From the NCBI RefSeq assembly GCF_016906995.1, contig NZ_JAFBBD010000005.1, forward strand, positions 124,001-188,000: DNA of 64,000 bases, in the 5' to 3' direction. This document shows, piece by piece, positions 31,042 through 38,427 of this stretch. This DNA is from Spongiibacter marinus. GTDB taxonomy: Bacteria; Pseudomonadota; Gammaproteobacteria; Pseudomonadales; Spongiibacteraceae. How positions within the stretch are numbered: position 1 is the stretch's first letter; every line of letters starts with the position of its first letter. The notes beneath the pieces were generated by a model. The model was not told the DNA's origin, did not search any database, and saw nothing but the letters and a program-made list of their open reading frames with translations. The position numbers were made by a program, and so were the translations under genes.

Positions 31042-32388
31042 TTAGAACGCCCACTGTGTGCGGATAGCAAAGCTGTCGATGTTGTCAGCAACCTCGCCTT
31101 TATCGTTCTGGATCGCGCCGCCGTCCAGGTCGTAGCTGCGGCTGTAATCAAACAGCACGCGCATGTTGCGGCTCAGATACCAGTTCAAGCCCAGGGTAAA
31201 GCGCTTGGCTTCGCCGCCACTGATATTGTCATCTTCCAGATCAATTTGATCAAAGCGTGCAGCGACTTCCAATGCGCCCCAATCGCCGGTGCTGGCATTG
31301 AATGGCGTGTTCACATTGAAGTACTTAAATTCGCCTTCAGACGCTTTGTAGCGGCGTTGACCACCAAAGATACTGTAGCCGAGTTGCACGTAGTGCGCGG
31401 AAAAGCTCAGGTCGTCGCCACTGTCACGGCTAACATTGTTCGCTGCAATCTCGCTTTGCACCGACCAGGCACCGTGCATGGCGGCAAATTCCAGAACGCC
31501 TACTTCGACCTTGTCCATATCCGCAACGCTGGCGTTAACGGGCTTGAGGTCAGAGAAGTTCGTGGTTTTATATGAGAATGACGGGCTCTTGCCATTCGCT
31601 AAACCGTCGTCGCTGGTTTTGCGCAGGCCATAAGATGCACCCACGTGGACAACGGTATTGTCATTCAGAACCGGGGCGAAGCTGGCGCGCGCGCCAAAAC
31701 CGTGGCCTTCATCGGCATCATTATTAGAAATGCCGTCGCCGAACAAACCGGCCTTAGCGTGCCAGTTGCTGCCACCGCTGGCTGCTGTGATGCCAATGGC
31801 GCGGTCAAAGTAGGGCGTGGTGAGCGCAGCAACCAGTGAACGCTCGGTGAACATAATGTCATTAGAGCTTTCTTCTACTTCCATGCTGACCGCATGTTTT
31901 TGGTTACCGACCGTCAGTGTGATGGGGGCAGAGGTCAGCTTGTAGCTCAGGTTGGCGTCTTTAACGCTGACCTTGTTGCCGGCGAAGTCACTTTCCAGCA
32001 CGTACTTCCAGCGACCGTTCAGTTTGCCTTTAGCGTAGAGGCGGGCGCGGCGGATTTGTGTGCCGTCAATTGCATCTTCTTGGTTGGCAAACGCTTCGTG
32101 GTCGTGTGTGGCGTAGTCGGCGTGCAGGCGACCGCCAATTTGTATGCTGGCTTGCTTGTCCGCACTTTCAATTTTTAAGCCTTTGCTGCCCATGCTGACG
32201 GTCGCTTGTTGTTGTGCACGTTGCGCTTGTTCGGCCTGCAGTGATTGCGCTTCTTCGGCACTGATAATGCCTTTTTCTTGTAGAAGCTTCAGTAGAGCGG
32301 CGTCCTGCAGGTTATCGGCGAAGGCGTGGCTGGTTGCAAGGCAGGCGGCAATTGATGCGCTGCATGCTAAAGAAGAGATCGTTTTCAT
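31042..32388 (-). CDS. OprP/OprO-like phosphate-selective porin
   Basis: A 448-residue outer-membrane protein with a signal peptide (cleavage after SHAFA, residue 24). A short coiled segment (LLKLLQEKGIISAEEAQSLQ) precedes a 16-strand-type barrel ending WAF, the aromatic C-terminus used by the Bam machinery. The N-terminal pattern and IQIGGRLHADYA, TQIRRARLYAKGKL and WKYVLESDF are typical of the phosphate-selective porin O/P family. A Pho box and spaced -10 lie upstream on this strand, so induction under phosphate starvation is likely. Whether the substrate is phosphate or polyphosphate cannot be told from sequence. Confidence 0.88.
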   Translation of the reverse strand: MKTISSLACSASIAACLATSHAFADNLQDAALLKLLQEKGIISAEEAQSLQAEQAQRAQQQATVSMGSKGLKIESADKQASIQIGGRLHADYATHDHEAFANQEDAIDGTQIRRARLYAKGKLNGRWKYVLESDFAGNKVSVKDANLSYKLTSAPITLTVGNQKHAVSMEVEESSNDIMFTERSLVAALTTPYFDRAIGITAASGGSNWHAKAGLFGDGISNNDADEGHGFGARASFAPVLNDNTVVHVGASYGLRKTSDDGLANGKSPSFSYKTTNFSDLKPVNASVADMDKVEVGVLEFAAMHGAWSVQSEIAANNVSRDSGDDLSFSAHYVQLGYSIFGGQRRYKASEGEFKYFNVNTPFNASTGDWGALEVAARFDQIDLEDDNISGGEAKRFTLGLNWYLSRNMRVLFDYSRSYDLDGGAIQNDKGEVADNIDSFAIRTQWAF

Positions 32389-32441
32389 TGTTTAGGCACC
32401 CAAAATGAAAGAAGTGGCACTTATGTTACAAACCGGCGACA

Positions 32442-32475
32442 AGTGTATTTCCGTTTTATGACATTTTTATGACCA
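32442..32475 (-). promoter_or_regulatory. Pho box and -10 element of the porin gene
   Basis: On the minus strand two PhoB heptamers, TGGTCAT (32475-32469) and ATGTCAT (32464-32458), are separated by AAAA. This gives the 11-base PhoB repeat and agrees with the 18-base E. coli Pho consensus at about 15 positions. TACACT (32447-32442) follows after 10 bases, the spacing seen in E. coli phoA, where the Pho box replaces the -35. Confidence 0.75.
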
Positions 32476-32620
32476 ACAGGCGGCATTACTCCCTGTTTTT
32501 ACCAGACGGGGTCTCGCTGAGCCCCTGCGTTGTTCTCTAAGGCCTTGTTATTCAAATACAAATTAGCTTCTTATGGCGGCTTTGTCTAAAAAATAAGCAA
32601 AAAACACCGGCTGAAACATT

Positions 32621-32666
32621 TTCGTCATAGTTTATTCACTGAGTTGTCACTTTGCCTGCCTAACAT
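32621..32666 (+). promoter_or_regulatory. tandem Pho half-sites and -10 element of the lipoprotein/TonB receptor unit
   Basis: Three heptamers at exact 11-base steps, TTCGTCA (32621-32627), TTATTCA (32632-32638) and GTTGTCA (32643-32649), resemble successive PhoB half-sites. TAACAT at 32661-32666 lies 11 bases after the last one and can act as the -10. The middle half-site is the weakest. The rest of the 334-base gap (32389-32722) holds the porin Pho box and a small GGGG/CCCC hairpin near 32509-32526; I see no gene in it. Confidence 0.65.
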
Positions 32667-32722
32667 ACGCCTCAACGACAACAAGCTATGCCCTATTTAA
32701 AAGGTTCCGGAGATAAGTTCCC

Positions 32723-34399
32723 ATGAAAAAGCTTTTCGCAATGACAGCAATGGCCTCAGCGATGGCGCTGGTAGGCTGTGGTGGCGGCGGTGATATTAAT
32801 ATCAATGCCCAAAACAACTCTGTAGACAACAGCACCGGCAATGACGGTGGTACGCCTTCCAATGCTTGTGCGGCATACAGCGATAACGGCGTAACCCAGC
32901 AAGGCAGCCTGGACGGTGTGAACTGCATCTACGGTCCTGACTTCGTTAGCTTGACCAACCCGATCGAAACGCCTGCCGGCAACCCGGTTGTATTCGAAAA
33001 GCTGAGCAACGGCGGTGTGCACATCTTCCGCGATAGCCTGGTCGTGGGTAAAAACTATGACAACGATGCAGACCTGAATGCAGCAGGCATCACCAAAGGT
33101 GGTGACGGTGCAAGCATTCAAATCGAAGCGGGCACGACCTTGGCCTTTCAGTCTAGCGACGATTACATGGTAATTAACCGCGGTTCGCAAATCATCGCCG
33201 AAGGCGAGATGAACGCGCCCATCACTATCACTTCAGTGTCAGATGCTGTGGAAAATTCTGTTGACCCTGAGGACGTACAGCAGTGGGGCGGCTTGATCAT
33301 TAACGGCTTCGGTGTCACCAATAAGTGTTCTTACACCGGTTCTTTTGCGAACAACAACTTGGCCACTAGTGACTGTCACGTTGCTGCAGAAGGTAAAGCG
33401 GGCGCCGGCCAAACGCATTACGGCGGTGATAACAACGAAGATAGCTCAGGTACGCTGAAATACTTCATTGTTAAGCACACCGGCTTTGAAGTTGAGGAAG
33501 ACAACGAGCTGAACGGAATTTCTTTCAACGCTGTTGGATCGGGCACCACGGTTGATTACCTGCAAGCCTACTCAACTTACGACGACGGCATCGAGTTCTT
33601 CGGTGGTGCGGTAAACGTGGGGCACTACATCGGCATGTACGTGCGTGACGACTCTATCGATATCGATGAAGGCTACCGCGGCACGATCGACTACGCACTG
33701 GTTATCCAGTCTGAGAACGACGGCAACCGCTGTGTAGAGTCTGACGGTATCGGCAGCTACTCGAGCAAAGACCAAGCGACCATTGATGACTTCATCGCTC
33801 GCGGCTTGAACTCGCAAGCGACCATCAAGAACCTGACTTGTATTGTGTCAGCGACAGAGGTGAGTGGTCAGCCAAACGGTACTGGTACCCACGATCCCGG
33901 CCAGGGCATGCGTATTCGTGAAGCGCATTTCCCAACCATCCAAAATGCCTTGATCACCACGGCTTACAAAGGCGATGTGAAACTGGCCGATGACGACTAC
34001 AACTACTGTGTGCGCATCGATAACGAGGGCCTGCAAGCGGCTCAGGATGGCGATCTGAAAATTGAGAGCAGCATCATTGCTTGTCAGGACCTGACTGATG
34101 GCAACGATCTGCCCAACGGCACCACTCAGCTGCAGTTCTTGCAGGCCAGCAACGACACTTACCAGTCGCTGGAAGCGGGTGAAGATCCCACTGCCGATGC
34201 GAATGCCAATCTGGAAATCCTGAAAGGCTTCTACTCGCTGCCACTGGCCGACATGAAAGTGAATGGTGCTGCCCCAACAGTAACACCCGCTGATGGTCGT
34301 GCCTTCATCGGCGCAGTCACCGAAGACGATGACTGGACTGCGGGTTGGGCCTACGGCTTGGAGCCCGCTAACCGCGGCCAAGGCCTGTGGTTCGAATAA
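32723..34399 (+). CDS. secreted lipoprotein with right-handed beta-helix-like repeats
   Basis: A 558-residue lipoprotein: signal peptide with lipobox LVGC (Cys19), then a Gly/Asn-rich tether. The body has beta-helix-like blocks such as IQIEAGTTLAFQSSDDYMVI, GSQIIAEGEMNAPITITS and WGGLIINGFG, followed by DYLQAYSTYDDGIEFFGG. Eight further cysteines fall in four close pairs, suggesting disulfides and an exported location. Similar proteins in other proteobacteria and Bacteroidetes are annotated only as hypothetical lipoproteins. It lies directly upstream of a TonB-dependent receptor and downstream of Pho half-sites. I infer a surface-exposed partner that binds or processes a phosphorus-containing ligand; no hydrolase motif is evident. 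Confidence 0.75.
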   Translation: MKKLFAMTAMASAMALVGCGGGGDININAQNNSVDNSTGNDGGTPSNACAAYSDNGVTQQGSLDGVNCIYGPDFVSLTNPIETPAGNPVVFEKLSNGGVHIFRDSLVVGKNYDNDADLNAAGITKGGDGASIQIEAGTTLAFQSSDDYMVINRGSQIIAEGEMNAPITITSVSDAVENSVDPEDVQQWGGLIINGFGVTNKCSYTGSFANNNLATSDCHVAAEGKAGAGQTHYGGDNNEDSSGTLKYFIVKHTGFEVEEDNELNGISFNAVGSGTTVDYLQAYSTYDDGIEFFGGAVNVGHYIGMYVRDDSIDIDEGYRGTIDYALVIQSENDGNRCVESDGIGSYSSKDQATIDDFIARGLNSQATIKNLTCIVSATEVSGQPNGTGTHDPGQGMRIREAHFPTIQNALITTAYKGDVKLADDDYNYCVRIDNEGLQAAQDGDLKIESSIIACQDLTDGNDLPNGTTQLQFLQASNDTYQSLEAGEDPTADANANLEILKGFYSLPLADMKVNGAAPTVTPADGRAFIGAVTEDDDWTAGWAYGLEPANRGQGLWFE

Positions 34400-34435
34400 G
34401 CGAACGCAGAGTCTAACGCCAGAGCCGTAAAACAG

Positions 34436-34459
34436 AGGGCGCCTTACGGCGCCCTTTCT
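34436..34459 (+). terminator. intercistronic stem-loop between the lipoprotein and the TonB receptor
   Basis: AGGGCGCC-TTAC-GGCGCCCT is a perfect 8-base stem followed by a weak T-rich stretch (TTCTGTT). It could partly terminate or protect the lipoprotein mRNA end, giving more lipoprotein than receptor. Confidence 0.5.
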
Positions 34460-34495: not shown

Positions 34496-37204
34496 ATGAA
34501 AAAGCAGATGATTAAAAAAGGGTTGCTGCCGGCATTTAGCCTGAGCGCTCTTAGCCTCGCCGTTTCGGCGGTGGCGCAAGAGGCCGACAGCGACCTCAGT
34601 TTTAACAAGCCACTGGAAGAAGTGGTTGTTGTTGGCCGCCTGAAGAGCACCGCCGAAAACCTGGTGATTGAACGGCTGGAACAAGAAGTCGCGGTGGATT
34701 TTCTCGGGGCTGAGGCGATTGGTCGTATCGGTGATTCAACCGTTGCTGCCGCGCTGCGCCGCGTGCCCGGTGTTACCCTAATTGATGACAAGTTTGTTTT
34801 TGTCCGCGGTTTGGGTGAGCGCTACTCAAGCACCTTGTTAAACGGTGCAGTGGTTCCCTCTCCAGACCTGACGCGCAGTGTTATTCCGCTGGATATTTTC
34901 CCAACGTCCATCGTTGAGAGCCTGGCGGTTCAGAAGGTGCATTCCTCTGATATGCCGGCTGCTTTTGGTGGTGGTAATGTGGATATCCGCACCAAAGGTA
35001 TTCCCAGTGATCTGGTGTTTAGCCTTGAGATTGGCACGGACTACAATAGCGCCTCTGACGGCCGGCTGCTGACCTACAAAGGCGGCAGTGACGATATTTA
35101 TGGCAACGACGATGGCACGCGAGCGCTTTCTTACAAGCTCAAGCAAGCGCTGCGTCAATACGGCGGTAGCCTTGATCGCAACGATATTCTCGCCGATATG
35201 CGCCAGTCAAACCCCAATGCAACACTGGCCGATGCCGAACAGCTCAACCGTGAGTTGGCGTTGAACCTGTATCGCAATATCGATATTTACGAAACTGATG
35301 ACGACGATAACTTCTCTGCTGAAGTTAACGCCGGTAACCGTTTCTATCTTGGCGATGCTGAAGAGATTGAGTTTGGCGTGTTGGCTGGGCTGTCCTATGA
35401 CCGCAGCTGGCGCAATAAGTCGTCGGAAGTGCGTTCGGTATCTGACGAGGACGAAGCCGAGTTCAAAAACGAGACGACGCAGAACACATCGATTGCTGCC
35501 AACCTGAATTTTGGTTTGCGCTTGAACGAAGATCACTCGCTGGAAACAACCAGCCTTTATCTTCGCAACACCGATGACAAAACTTCAGTCACCGATAGTT
35601 ATGACAACGATCAGCCTGTGGGCGGGGACATCTCGGACCGTCAGTTCAGAATTCGTTTTGAACAGCGCGAGCTGGTGGTGAATCAAATTCGCGGTGAACA
35701 TACTTTCGGTGAGTTGAGCCGCGAGCAGTTGGGCTGGGATCAGTTGGCCTTTGCCGAAGGCTTGAGCTTTAACTGGTTCTACTCCGACAGTGAATCGACG
35801 ACTGAGATCCCCAACGAAGTTGCGGTGCAGACACGTCATGTAGAGGGCCCGAATGGCAGCACCACTGTTGCCGCAAACGCGACGGCTGCCGACTACCGTT
35901 TTACCGATCTCCAGGATGAAGTTGAGAGCTACGGTTGGGAAGTGAAAATGCCGTTCTCCAGCATGGATTGGAAAGTTGAGCTGAGCGGTGGTAACGAGTA
36001 TTGGGAAAAGGCGCGTACCTATCGCCAGACCCAGTTCGGCCTGGGCTCAGTGGACGCATCGGATGCAGTGCGCAGCGGCCCACTGGATCGCGTCTACAGT
36101 GACGCTAATATTCTCGACCCCAACAATGGCTATCAAATCCAGGTGGCTGGCAGTAACTCCGAAAGTTACATTGCCGCCAACCGCGTTGATGCCTACTACG
36201 GTAAGCTCGACGTTACCTGGCAGGATACCTGGCGCGTTGTTGCTGGTTTGCGCTACGAAGACTATCAGCAAGTGGGTTTGACCTGGGATCCGCTCGACTT
36301 TGATGGTATTCCTGTCGTGAGCAATGAGTCCGGTGGTCAGCAGGCGATCATCGACGAGCTCGAAAATGCCGTCTTCACCGACGACGATACCTTCGCTTCG
36401 CTCGCGGCAACGTACATGCTGCCCGGCTTCTGGGCCGAGGACTTTCAGCTGCGCTTTGGCTACAGTGAAACGACGGTTCGCCCGGACCTGCGTGAGATTG
36501 CTGACTCCAGCTACGTGGACCCAGTGACTGGCGCGCTGGTGTTCGGTAACCCCGATGTTCGCCCGGCGCAGTTTAAAAACTACGACCTGCGTGCAGAGTG
36601 GTTCTTCAGCAACAGCGACAGCTTCACCGCATCGTTGTTCTACAAGGACATTAGTGACCCGATTGAGCTGTTCCAGGCTGCGGCGGGTGACACCAACACC
36701 GCTGTTGAAATCGTCAATGCCGAAAGCGCGACGATTATGGGTGCAGAAGTGGAGTTTATGAAGAGCCTCGGTGACTTTTCCGATGCGCTTATCCCCTTCT
36801 TCCTTCAGGGTAACTTGACTCTGCTGGATACCGAGCTGGTTGCTGGCAGCAATGCCGATGCGCCCACCAACGCTAAGCGCGACCTGGTTGGTGCCTCAGA
36901 CTATGCGGCGAACTTGATTCTCGGGTTTGACTCGGCAGACGAAATGCACGCGGCAACACTGTCTTACAATGTGTTCGGCGAGCGCCTTTACTTTGCCGGC
37001 CGCAATGGTGAGCCCGACGCTTTTGAGCAGCCTTTCCACTCATTGGATGCCACCTATTCTTTCTACCCGAACCAGTCCGTTATTGTGAAGGTGAAGGTGA
37101 AAAATATTCTGGATGAAGAGCTGGAAATCGAGCGCGACGGTAAGACCACGTTCCGCGAGGAAGTGGGTACGACCTTTAGCGCTAGCATTGAATATGAATT
37201 CTAA
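34496..37204 (+). CDS. TonB-dependent outer-membrane receptor
   Basis: A 902-residue receptor with a signal peptide ending AVAQ near residue 29 and a TonB-box-like segment (LEEVVVVGR, about 41-49). The plug domain (about 60-170) includes GDSTVAAALRRVPGV and FVFVRGLGERYSSTLLNG. A 22-strand-type barrel ends FSASIEYEF with the terminal Phe. The plug resembles the large TonB-receptor subgroup that travels with beta-helix lipoproteins, not siderophore receptors with known ligands. It follows the lipoprotein by 96 bases and likely shares its Pho-controlled promoter. The substrate is unknown; a phosphorus-containing compound is an inference from regulation and the OprP-like porin. Confidence 0.88.
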   Translation: MKKQMIKKGLLPAFSLSALSLAVSAVAQEADSDLSFNKPLEEVVVVGRLKSTAENLVIERLEQEVAVDFLGAEAIGRIGDSTVAAALRRVPGVTLIDDKFVFVRGLGERYSSTLLNGAVVPSPDLTRSVIPLDIFPTSIVESLAVQKVHSSDMPAAFGGGNVDIRTKGIPSDLVFSLEIGTDYNSASDGRLLTYKGGSDDIYGNDDGTRALSYKLKQALRQYGGSLDRNDILADMRQSNPNATLADAEQLNRELALNLYRNIDIYETDDDDNFSAEVNAGNRFYLGDAEEIEFGVLAGLSYDRSWRNKSSEVRSVSDEDEAEFKNETTQNTSIAANLNFGLRLNEDHSLETTSLYLRNTDDKTSVTDSYDNDQPVGGDISDRQFRIRFEQRELVVNQIRGEHTFGELSREQLGWDQLAFAEGLSFNWFYSDSESTTEIPNEVAVQTRHVEGPNGSTTVAANATAADYRFTDLQDEVESYGWEVKMPFSSMDWKVELSGGNEYWEKARTYRQTQFGLGSVDASDAVRSGPLDRVYSDANILDPNNGYQIQVAGSNSESYIAANRVDAYYGKLDVTWQDTWRVVAGLRYEDYQQVGLTWDPLDFDGIPVVSNESGGQQAIIDELENAVFTDDDTFASLAATYMLPGFWAEDFQLRFGYSETTVRPDLREIADSSYVDPVTGALVFGNPDVRPAQFKNYDLRAEWFFSNSDSFTASLFYKDISDPIELFQAAAGDTNTAVEIVNAESATIMGAEVEFMKSLGDFSDALIPFFLQGNLTLLDTELVAGSNADAPTNAKRDLVGASDYAANLILGFDSADEMHAATLSYNVFGERLYFAGRNGEPDAFEQPFHSLDATYSFYPNQSVIVKVKVKNILDEELEIERDGKTTFREEVGTTFSASIEYEF

Positions 37205-37299: not shown

Positions 37300-38427
37300 C
37301 TATTTGCCCTGCTTGAGTTTGGCGTGAGCAGCCTTTAGGCCGTATTCGTGGTACTTGTCGGTATTGCCCTGGCTGCGAAAAATAACGGCCGCAAACTGAT
37401 AAAAACGATACTCGTTTTTGTCCAGTCGAATGGCGCGTTTGATGGAATTCAAGGCTTGGGGATAGTCGCCTCTTTCAAAGGCTGCGCGGGAGCGGCTGTA
37501 GTGCCAGAAAGGGTTGTCGCGCTGTCGAGATTCAATGACTTGCTCAAGTTGCTTAGCGCGATCTTTGCGGCCACTGCTGCGGTACAGCCGGGCCAAGTTG
37601 GAGAGTGATGCGGACTCCTCCGGGTCCAGACTCAGCGCCTTTAGAAAGGCAAGCTCGGCTTCGTCGTTGTGCCCTTCTCGGCGGAACAGAACGCCTAAGT
37701 TACCCCAAATATAGGCTTCGTCAGGGCCGAGGTACAGCGCCCGGCGCAGGTAGAGATAGGCATCGCCGTAATTTTTGCTGTTCAGTGCGCCAACGCCCAG
37801 GTTGCTGTAATACTGCGCGGCGGCGATATCGTCGCTGACTCGTTTTTGCGGATAGCGATAGTCGTAAATATCTACGCTGAAGTCGATAACTTCGCGTTGG
37901 CCATTGCCGAGGTCGACAACGGCATTGATGTGTTTATAAATCGCTGAACTGCTGTTGCTCAGCATTTCCCAGCTAGGCGGCACGCTGACTTCATTAAAAT
38001 AGACATCCAGCTTTGCTTCTCGCGCCAGCGCTATAAACAATAAACTCAGCGACAAGCAGTCGCCTTGTGGGTCTTCAAAGGTGTCCGCGGCACTTTGGGT
38101 AATACCCGGTTGGTAGCGAATGCCCAATTGCCGGGGCCGCACCATGGCATCGACTAAGTAGCGGAGTCTGGCGCGCGGGGTGAGTACCGGCGGCACATGC
38201 TCGTTGACGAAGTAACGCATCTCTGCGGTCACCGCGAGAATGTGTTGGTCCGGGGTGTTGAGGGGCGCGGGTTGCCGGTTGAACAGCGCCTCCTGGTGCA
38301 GCAGTTGTGCAACCGCATCGCTATCCGGGGCAGCGATAAATTGCTCGAGTTGCGTGGGCTGTGTGCTGCAGGCGCTGCTCAAGAGCAATGTGGCGCTCAG
38401 TATTATTGTTTTTGCCGGGTGCTTCAT
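37300..38427 (-). CDS. lipoprotein with transglutaminase-like and TPR domains
   Basis: A 375-residue lipoprotein (lipobox SSAC, Cys20). Residues about 60-185 look like a transglutaminase-type cysteine domain with Cys124 in QGDCLSLSLLF, His166 in YKHINAVVDL and Asp182 in VIDFSVDIYD forming a plausible triad. Residues about 205-365 are TPR helices (YLYLRRALYLGPDEAYIWGN, AFLKALSLDPEESASLSNLA, ALNSIKRAIRLDKNEYRFYQ). Such proteins occur as periplasmic or outer-membrane-associated factors; their substrate is unknown. It converges on the TonB receptor, so it is transcribed separately and its link to that locus is only positional. Confidence 0.75.
   Translation of the reverse strand: MKHPAKTIILSATLLLSSACSTQPTQLEQFIAAPDSDAVAQLLHQEALFNRQPAPLNTPDQHILAVTAEMRYFVNEHVPPVLTPRARLRYLVDAMVRPRQLGIRYQPGITQSAADTFEDPQGDCLSLSLLFIALAREAKLDVYFNEVSVPPSWEMLSNSSSAIYKHINAVVDLGNGQREVIDFSVDIYDYRYPQKRVSDDIAAAQYYSNLGVGALNSKNYGDAYLYLRRALYLGPDEAYIWGNLGVLFRREGHNDEAELAFLKALSLDPEESASLSNLARLYRSSGRKDRAKQLEQVIESRQRDNPFWHYSRSRAAFERGDYPQALNSIKRAIRLDKNEYRFYQFAAVIFRSQGNTDKYHEYGLKAAHAKLKQGK

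Follow-up and report, generated by a model that had tools for sequence, protein, structure and literature searches.

Candidate PhoB promoters on both arms of a divergent gap between an OprP/OprO-like porin gene and an ElpS-like lipoprotein-receptor gene pair in Spongiibacter marinus

The 334-bp gap at positions 32389-32722 of a 64,000-nucleotide stretch of the Spongiibacter marinus genome (GCF_016906995.1, NZ_JAFBBD010000005.1, positions 124,001-188,000 of the forward strand; in the following the window) is a divergent intergenic region, which separates a porin gene on the minus strand from a lipoprotein gene and the receptor gene behind it on the plus strand. Judged from sequence comparison, both arms of this gap are probably under the control of PhoB, a reading to which we assign a probability of about 0.88. 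An earlier note, made from the letters of this DNA, had proposed PhoB-type control of both arms, and this proposal is supported by the match of the sites to those of the genome's own phoB, pstS and pstC, by their recurrence in relatives and by the pst/pho genes found near the lipoprotein gene and its receptor gene at 14 of 59 named loci. Systems of this kind are already known from two other bacterial groups; what is new is the direct and conserved PhoB promoter architecture in Gammaproteobacteria.

Architecture of the gap and scoring of its sites

It is established for E. coli that phosphorylated PhoB binds to tandem 11-bp half-sites replacing the -35 element, and in the E. coli phoA promoter the distance between the box and the -10 element is 10 bases, as it is on both arms here. 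On the minus strand, the heptamers TGGTCAT (32475-32469) and ATGTCAT (32464-32458) follow each other in an 11-bp step and form the box TGGTCATAAAAATGTCAT (32458..32475, matrix score 20.97), and after 10 further bases the -10-like element TACACT (32447-32442) can be read directly, exactly as the earlier note had described it. A second box-like pair, TTGTAACATAAGTGCCAC (32431-32414, minus strand, matrix score 18.4), was absent from that description; it lies in 11-bp register with the first box, downstream of the predicted -10 element of the porin promoter, and is also present in the near-identical genome G013, while in G007 it is not among the best-scoring sites. On the plus strand, TCGTCAT (32622-32628), TATTCAC (32633-32639) and TTGTCAC (32644-32650) are followed by the -10-like element TAACAT (32661-32666, by direct reading). 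The 11-base steps and the TAACAT element that had been proposed for this arm were borne out, the number of three heptamers was not: a fourth half-site, CTGAAAC (32611-32617), stands in the same register, completing the array CTGAAAC-TCGTCAT-TATTCAC-TTGTCAC (32611..32650, plus strand). Moreover, the distance to TAACAT had been given as 11 bases and has to be corrected to 10 (32651-32660), making the spacing identical on both arms. The half-site pair closest to the plus-strand -10 element is a poor box when taken alone (matrix score 3.4), and no sigma-70 consensus promoter was found in 32300-32800.

A plain consensus scan allowing 3 mismatches showed no enrichment in the window (4 matches versus 3.83 expected), and across the whole genome it returned 213 matches versus 166 for the reversed pattern. 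As a scan of this kind is without power, a weight matrix was trained instead. For this, 18 genomes were used that belong to the same genus or family, the own genome among them, and the best box was taken from the upstream regions of phoB and pstS. The resulting 34 training sites, 22 of them distinct, were chosen by resemblance to the PhoB consensus; they include the boxes of the genome's own phoB and pstS, and all porin and lipoprotein sites were excluded. The phoB loci L125 and L134 did not enter the training, nor did the second pstS copies (L116-L118); the PstS-like gene of G010 was kept although it falls below its family cut-off. In a held-out check, 12 of the 18 loci had a box scoring at least 17 no more than 400 bp downstream of the pstS match, and in the own genome the gene behind this box is pstC (NCBIfam). 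The array at pstC contains CTGAAACATTATCGTCAT, which is identical in 17 of 18 bases to CTGAAACATTTTCGTCAT, the pair that opens the lipoprotein array.

Scoring the gap with a PhoB weight matrix, which had been suggested as a check, placed both arms above the entire background, i.e., 19 stretches of 20 kb from the same genome together with the part of the window outside 32301-32800, read on both strands: none of these 886,286 positions reached the score of the plus arm (15.06) or the minus arm (20.97), and the three- and four-half-site scores of both arms were likewise unmatched. The lipoprotein array has the top four-half-site score across the 464 kb scanned. Among the best sites listed, scores of at least 14.95 occurred solely in the stretch carrying phoB, pstS and pstC (L159) or in this gap, and the best listed site outside the gap and the pho locus reached 14.1. 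A multi-site consensus match elsewhere (L003/L004) was discarded; no phosphate gene was recognised by eye among the open reading frames of L003.

Recurrence of the sites and of phosphate genes in relatives

For the lipoprotein promoter, a close set of 57 genomes, own included, was searched; the lipoprotein was matched in 27 and the best 20 of the 26 relatives were taken (among the remaining 6 matched relatives, G003 has a paralogue only). The four-half-site array is recognisable in 20/20 of these relatives, being weakest in a second genus (L078-L080), and the lipoprotein and receptor genes adjoin in all 20; the porin gene lies within the studied stretch in 2 of them, and among the 21 loci it is the window, G013 and G007 that show the divergent arrangement. 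As the array persists without a neighbouring porin, it belongs to the lipoprotein gene independently of the shared gap. With the window included, all 21 close-set promoters outscored at least 99% of 200 dinucleotide-shuffled sequences in one of two scores, and in 17 of 21 a TANNAT hexamer follows exactly 10 bases past the array.

A profile search of named genomes, of which the best 80 loci were kept, extended the comparison to Zhongshania, Spongiibacter, Porticoccaceae, Woeseiaceae, Microbulbifer, Pseudohongiella and Gilvimarinus as well as Idiomarina, Colwellia, Rheinheimera, Salinimonas, Glaciecola and Pseudoalteromonas. The named Zhongshania and Spongiibacter loci have promoters identical to those of two genus-set genomes. 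The promoter test could use 56 of the 80 loci: L160 and L187 repeat genus-set genomes, L194 is without a usable start, and 21 further loci were excluded, their matches being internal only or lying in tandem-repeat proteins. In the shuffle test, 50 of the 56 pass at 1% and 54 at 5%, with about one expected to pass at 1% by chance as two scores were used; the six failures at 1% are four Microbulbifer loci, L168 and L180. A control with real genes points in the same direction, since at the middle threshold 15/464 other upstream regions pass versus 55/77 lipoprotein regions (39/56 in the distant set). The pho/pst genes themselves exceed this threshold in 5/45 cases, probably because most of them sit inside operons.

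The porin was sought in 22 close-set genomes and matched in 16, with 17 matches in total. A box scoring at least 16 is located upstream of all 12 closer homologues (46-100% identity, the own gene and a near-identical one counted), which are mostly unlinked to the lipoprotein gene; the 5 distant matches have no upstream box of at least 12. The hexamer 10 bases past the box reads TACACT, TAAAAT, TATTAT, CAGAAT, CACAAT or CAAACT, and in G013 it follows the lower-scoring of two box pairs. In G010 the porin gene has a pstS-like gene on one side and phoB on the other, all inside 9.1 kb. As the boxes recur whether or not the porin and lipoprotein genes adjoin, each arm has its own site and the divergence is a local arrangement. 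Conservation of the heptamers, named earlier as a check on the idea, is found on both arms: on that of the lipoprotein by the array in all 20 close relatives and the significant site in 50 of 56 distant loci, and on that of the porin by the box in 12/12 closer homologues.

Genes of the pst/pho group lie inside the flanks of the lipoprotein-receptor pair in the 14 of 59 named loci mentioned above, where flanks of up to 7 kb were covered; within the approximately 3-4 kb flanks of the genus-set loci no pst/pho cluster member was found. NCBIfam assignments above cut-off were obtained for one representative per pst/pho cluster, the other members being assigned by sequence clustering. A phoB gene is a neighbour in 9 loci (at least 52% identity to a confirmed PhoB), and 7 of the 16 neighbours that clustered as PhoB were rejected as other OmpR-type regulators. 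Neighbouring phoU, pstB and pstC/pstA genes occur in four loci, three from Porticoccaceae and one from elsewhere in the Pseudomonadales; a further locus has pstB, and L201, L204 and L219 show the order phoB, phoR, pstS, lipoprotein gene. The phoB gene of the own genome is on a different contig from the gap.

Two further observations concern the neighbourhood. In L171 (6180-6872), and also in L178, L183, L197 and L176, the lipoprotein gene is immediately preceded by a gene for a PhoB-like response regulator; the regulator of L171, the sole one tested, scores 210.6 and thus stays below the PhoB cut-off of 296.2. ExbB- and ExbD-like genes are found near the pair in L201, L204, L210, L216 and L227, with a TonB-like gene in four of the five, and these might perhaps act as a dedicated energiser for the pair.

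Two other origins of the repeats have to be weighed against PhoB. OmpR-family regulators have the repeat architecture in common, and in some loci, e.g., L171, the regulator gene beside the lipoprotein gene is PhoB-like but below cut-off, so that another member of the family might use the 11-bp repeats. However, the matrix was built from the phoB and pstS promoters of these very genomes and finds pstC, and phoB genes neighbour the pair in the 9 loci described, rendering another regulator very improbable. The heptamers might also have arisen by chance in an AT-rich gap, for which the missing excess in the plain consensus scan could be taken; this is contradicted by the matrix, the shuffles, the real-gene controls and the conservation across genera, and its probability is close to negligible.

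The lipoprotein-receptor pair and its possible role

The lipoprotein gene (32723..34399, plus strand) encodes 558 aa with a signal peptide and the lipobox LVGC at residues 16-19. The protein is homologous to Caulobacterales proteins encoded in the elpS position, and it is for this reason called ElpS-like. Searches of its sequence against Pfam, NCBIfam and PDB gave no match, and a SusD domain is absent, with 0/20 members of the lipoprotein family reaching E<=1 against any Pfam family. An AlphaFold2 model (mean pLDDT 87.9) predicts a right-handed beta-helix, the fold of many polysaccharide lyases, epimerases and tailspikes; the prediction corresponds to this fold in general, with no specific structural relative. 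Six acidic residues (D287, D288, E291, D309, D310 and D313) are invariant, and one may speculate that they make a metal or ligand site.

The gene for the TonB-dependent receptor (34496..37204, plus strand; 902 aa, PF00593 and PF07715) begins 96 bp downstream of the lipoprotein gene, and against TIGR01782 its product scores 204 bits, under the cut-off of 310. Clustering of the neighbours in 79 fetched loci plus the window placed 76 of the 80 in the lipoprotein cluster (L179, L183, L194 and L211 fall outside), and in 73 of these 76 a receptor gene comes next after that of the lipoprotein, in the same orientation. Between the two genes lies the hairpin AGAGGGCGCC-TTAC-GGCGCCCTTT (34434..34457, plus strand), which recurs in relatives with altered sequence. 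A strong hairpin after the lipoprotein stop codon is present in 49/76 loci versus 1.4 expected, an expectation derived from mononucleotide shuffles only, and it is possibly a partial terminator or an mRNA stabiliser. Beyond the receptor gene and convergent with it, a gene for a TPR lipoprotein (37300-38427) is located, which stands beside the pair in 18 clustered loci, the window and two repeated genomes counted.

The own genome also encodes a beta-helix-like paralogue on contig 9 (L240:2757-4370), which is without an evident signal peptide and approximately 32% identical to the lipoprotein core; by eye, its gene lies between argH-like and hemC-like genes, and a receptor of the type found in the window was not matched nearby. 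In several relatives (L249, L253, L254 and L255) the paralogue has upstream PhoB-like boxes scoring up to 29.1, and at those inspected the box is followed after 10 bases by the hexamer CATACT or CATAAT. The receptor-less paralogue (L240-L257) was dropped as a negative control because it scored at least 15 itself in 5 of 18 genomes.

Under phosphate starvation, phosphorylated PhoB would bind to the tandem 11-bp half-sites taking the place of the -35 element and, positioned 10 bases upstream of each -10 element, would recruit RNA polymerase. Leftward transcription would yield an anion porin of the OprP/OprO type, and rightward transcription an ElpS-type beta-helix lipoprotein expected at the surface or in the outer membrane. 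The partner TonB-dependent receptor would probably be encoded on the lipoprotein transcript; its level might be reduced by the intervening hairpin, which could allow the lipoprotein to be made in excess over the receptor. Most likely, at the cell surface the pair would capture or mobilise a substrate containing phosphorus, which it would then import.

PhoB might bind to the sites of the gap, and the pair might nevertheless serve general or glycan-related uptake that is merely starvation-responsive, the substrate not being a phosphorus compound. Receptors of the TIGR01782 type are often linked to carbohydrates, and the predicted fold is shared with many polysaccharide lyases and epimerases as well as tailspikes, both of which would fit this role. 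Moreover, glycan binding or hydrolysis is suggested for the Flavobacterium proteins FI-FIII; however, related lipoproteins and transporters of Flavobacterium are reported to be strongly induced by phosphate depletion (PMC8115612). Together with the pst/pho genes near the pair, this makes an unrelated substrate unlikely, without being far-fetched. Alternatively, the lipoprotein might activate a secreted phosphatase, a role put forward for ElpS, and the receptor might be functionally separate and perhaps constitutive. Overproduction of ElpS (cc0170) is reported to raise extracellular alkaline phosphatase activity, purified ElpS to have no such activity itself and the receptor cc0171 to be constitutive, and yet deletion of elpS is reported to leave phosphatase activity unchanged (PMC2996285). 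The hairpin between the two genes would agree with separate functions, but the genes adjoin in the same orientation in 73 of 76 loci, and the neighbouring transporter is reported to be induced too in Flavobacterium (PMC8115612), both of which speak against them; a phosphatase activator is in our judgement a fairly unlikely role.

Returning to capture and import of a phosphorus-containing substrate, one may tentatively go further, although we hold this to be a possibility rather than an expectation: the beta-helix lipoprotein and the receptor may constitute a widespread, directly PhoB-run phosphate-starvation module of marine Gammaproteobacteria. This dedicated surface system, mechanistically distinct from SusCD, would capture or process a polymer or ester of phosphorus and bring it in intact; in some lineages it would be integrated in the pst-pho locus or accompanied by an ExbB-ExbD-TonB set of its own. 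If true, phosphorus compounds would cross the outer membrane via an energised receptor in addition to porins, which bears on the competition for phosphorus in the sea. The lipoprotein itself is without a Pfam or NCBIfam match, yet its homologues with PhoB-type sites, partly near pst/pho genes, occur across many marine Gammaproteobacteria, and ElpS of Caulobacter and FI-FIII of Flavobacterium are hereby tied to a family with a clear and testable regulatory signature.

Comparison with known systems

Phosphate selectivity of OprP involves Arg59/Arg60, Lys121 and an arginine ladder. The porin of the window (31042..32388, minus strand; 448 aa) belongs, like OprP and OprO of P. aeruginosa, to the Porin_O_P family with a full-length match (PF07396, E 4.9e-64, whole profile), and in a PDB search Porin P (2o4v, E 2.2e-24) and Porin O were the sole matches at E 0.01. 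The similarity is remote, and unlike in the P. aeruginosa porins the selectivity residues appear only partly present and mostly fail to align, as far as a single weak pairwise alignment indicates, in which Arg59-Arg60 align and Lys121 and the RIRPRMGMR stretch do not. The promoters share with those of the E. coli Pho regulon such as phoA the 11-bp steps and the 10 bases to the -10 element, but differ in the four half-sites of the lipoprotein arm and in the divergent layout. Similar to SusCD and PusCD of Bacteroidetes, a lipoprotein is partnered with a TonB-dependent transporter; however, the lipoprotein here is a predicted beta-helix without Pfam match.

In the open-access literature, judged mostly by listings, no report of a gammaproteobacterial lipoprotein-receptor pair was found, and the passages of a paper on phosphate-limited Pseudoalteromonas do not mention TonB (PMC11170926). 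For other groups more is known. In F. johnsoniae, a phoBR operon (PUSIV) is reported to comprise OprP (Fjoh_0542), PhoR, PhoB, a TonB transporter (Fjoh_0545) and the lipoprotein FII (Fjoh_0546), of which the transporter and the lipoprotein are strongly induced by Pi depletion and the OprP gene is not, and FI-FIII are given 31-36% identity with the Caulobacter lipoprotein (PMC8115612). The same three kinds of outer-membrane part are thus found at a phosphate-linked locus, Fjoh_0546 and the lipoprotein of the window being compared by description only. Unlike here, PUSIV as described belongs to another phylum, its transporter gene is numbered before that of the lipoprotein and phoBR lies within the operon. 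A Bacteroidetes locus (L234) among the fetched ones encodes a homologue (37% identity over 342 residues) followed by a TonB-dependent receptor.

A further parallel comes from Caulobacter crescentus, in which various TonB-dependent receptors are placed in the PhoB regulon according to PMC11208175. The surface lipoprotein ElpS is described as produced on phosphate starvation, and the published order is elpS (cc0170), cc0171 and then T2SS genes (PMC2996285). Among ten fetched Caulobacterales loci, six have the homologue of the lipoprotein followed by a receptor gene, gspC and gspD in this order, cc0170 itself not being part of the comparison, and Eilatimonas L224 shows the same order of homologue, receptor gene, gspC and gspD. 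One Caulobacterales protein in the elpS position is 39% identical to the lipoprotein over 262 aa. No box of at least 12 was found at the ten Caulobacterales homologues (best 10.1) with the matrix, which is gammaproteobacterial; a tandem-repeat homologue of L233 has a box of 17.1. Unlike the Caulobacter locus with its downstream T2SS genes, a locus type also published for some others, the window has no gspC or gspD match, and the gspC of this genome lies on contig 8. As with ElpS and cc0171, of which ElpS is itself reported to be induced by phosphate starvation (PMC2996285), the lipoprotein gene adjoins that of its receptor, but it differs from this pair in that its promoter carries a four-half-site PhoB-type array.
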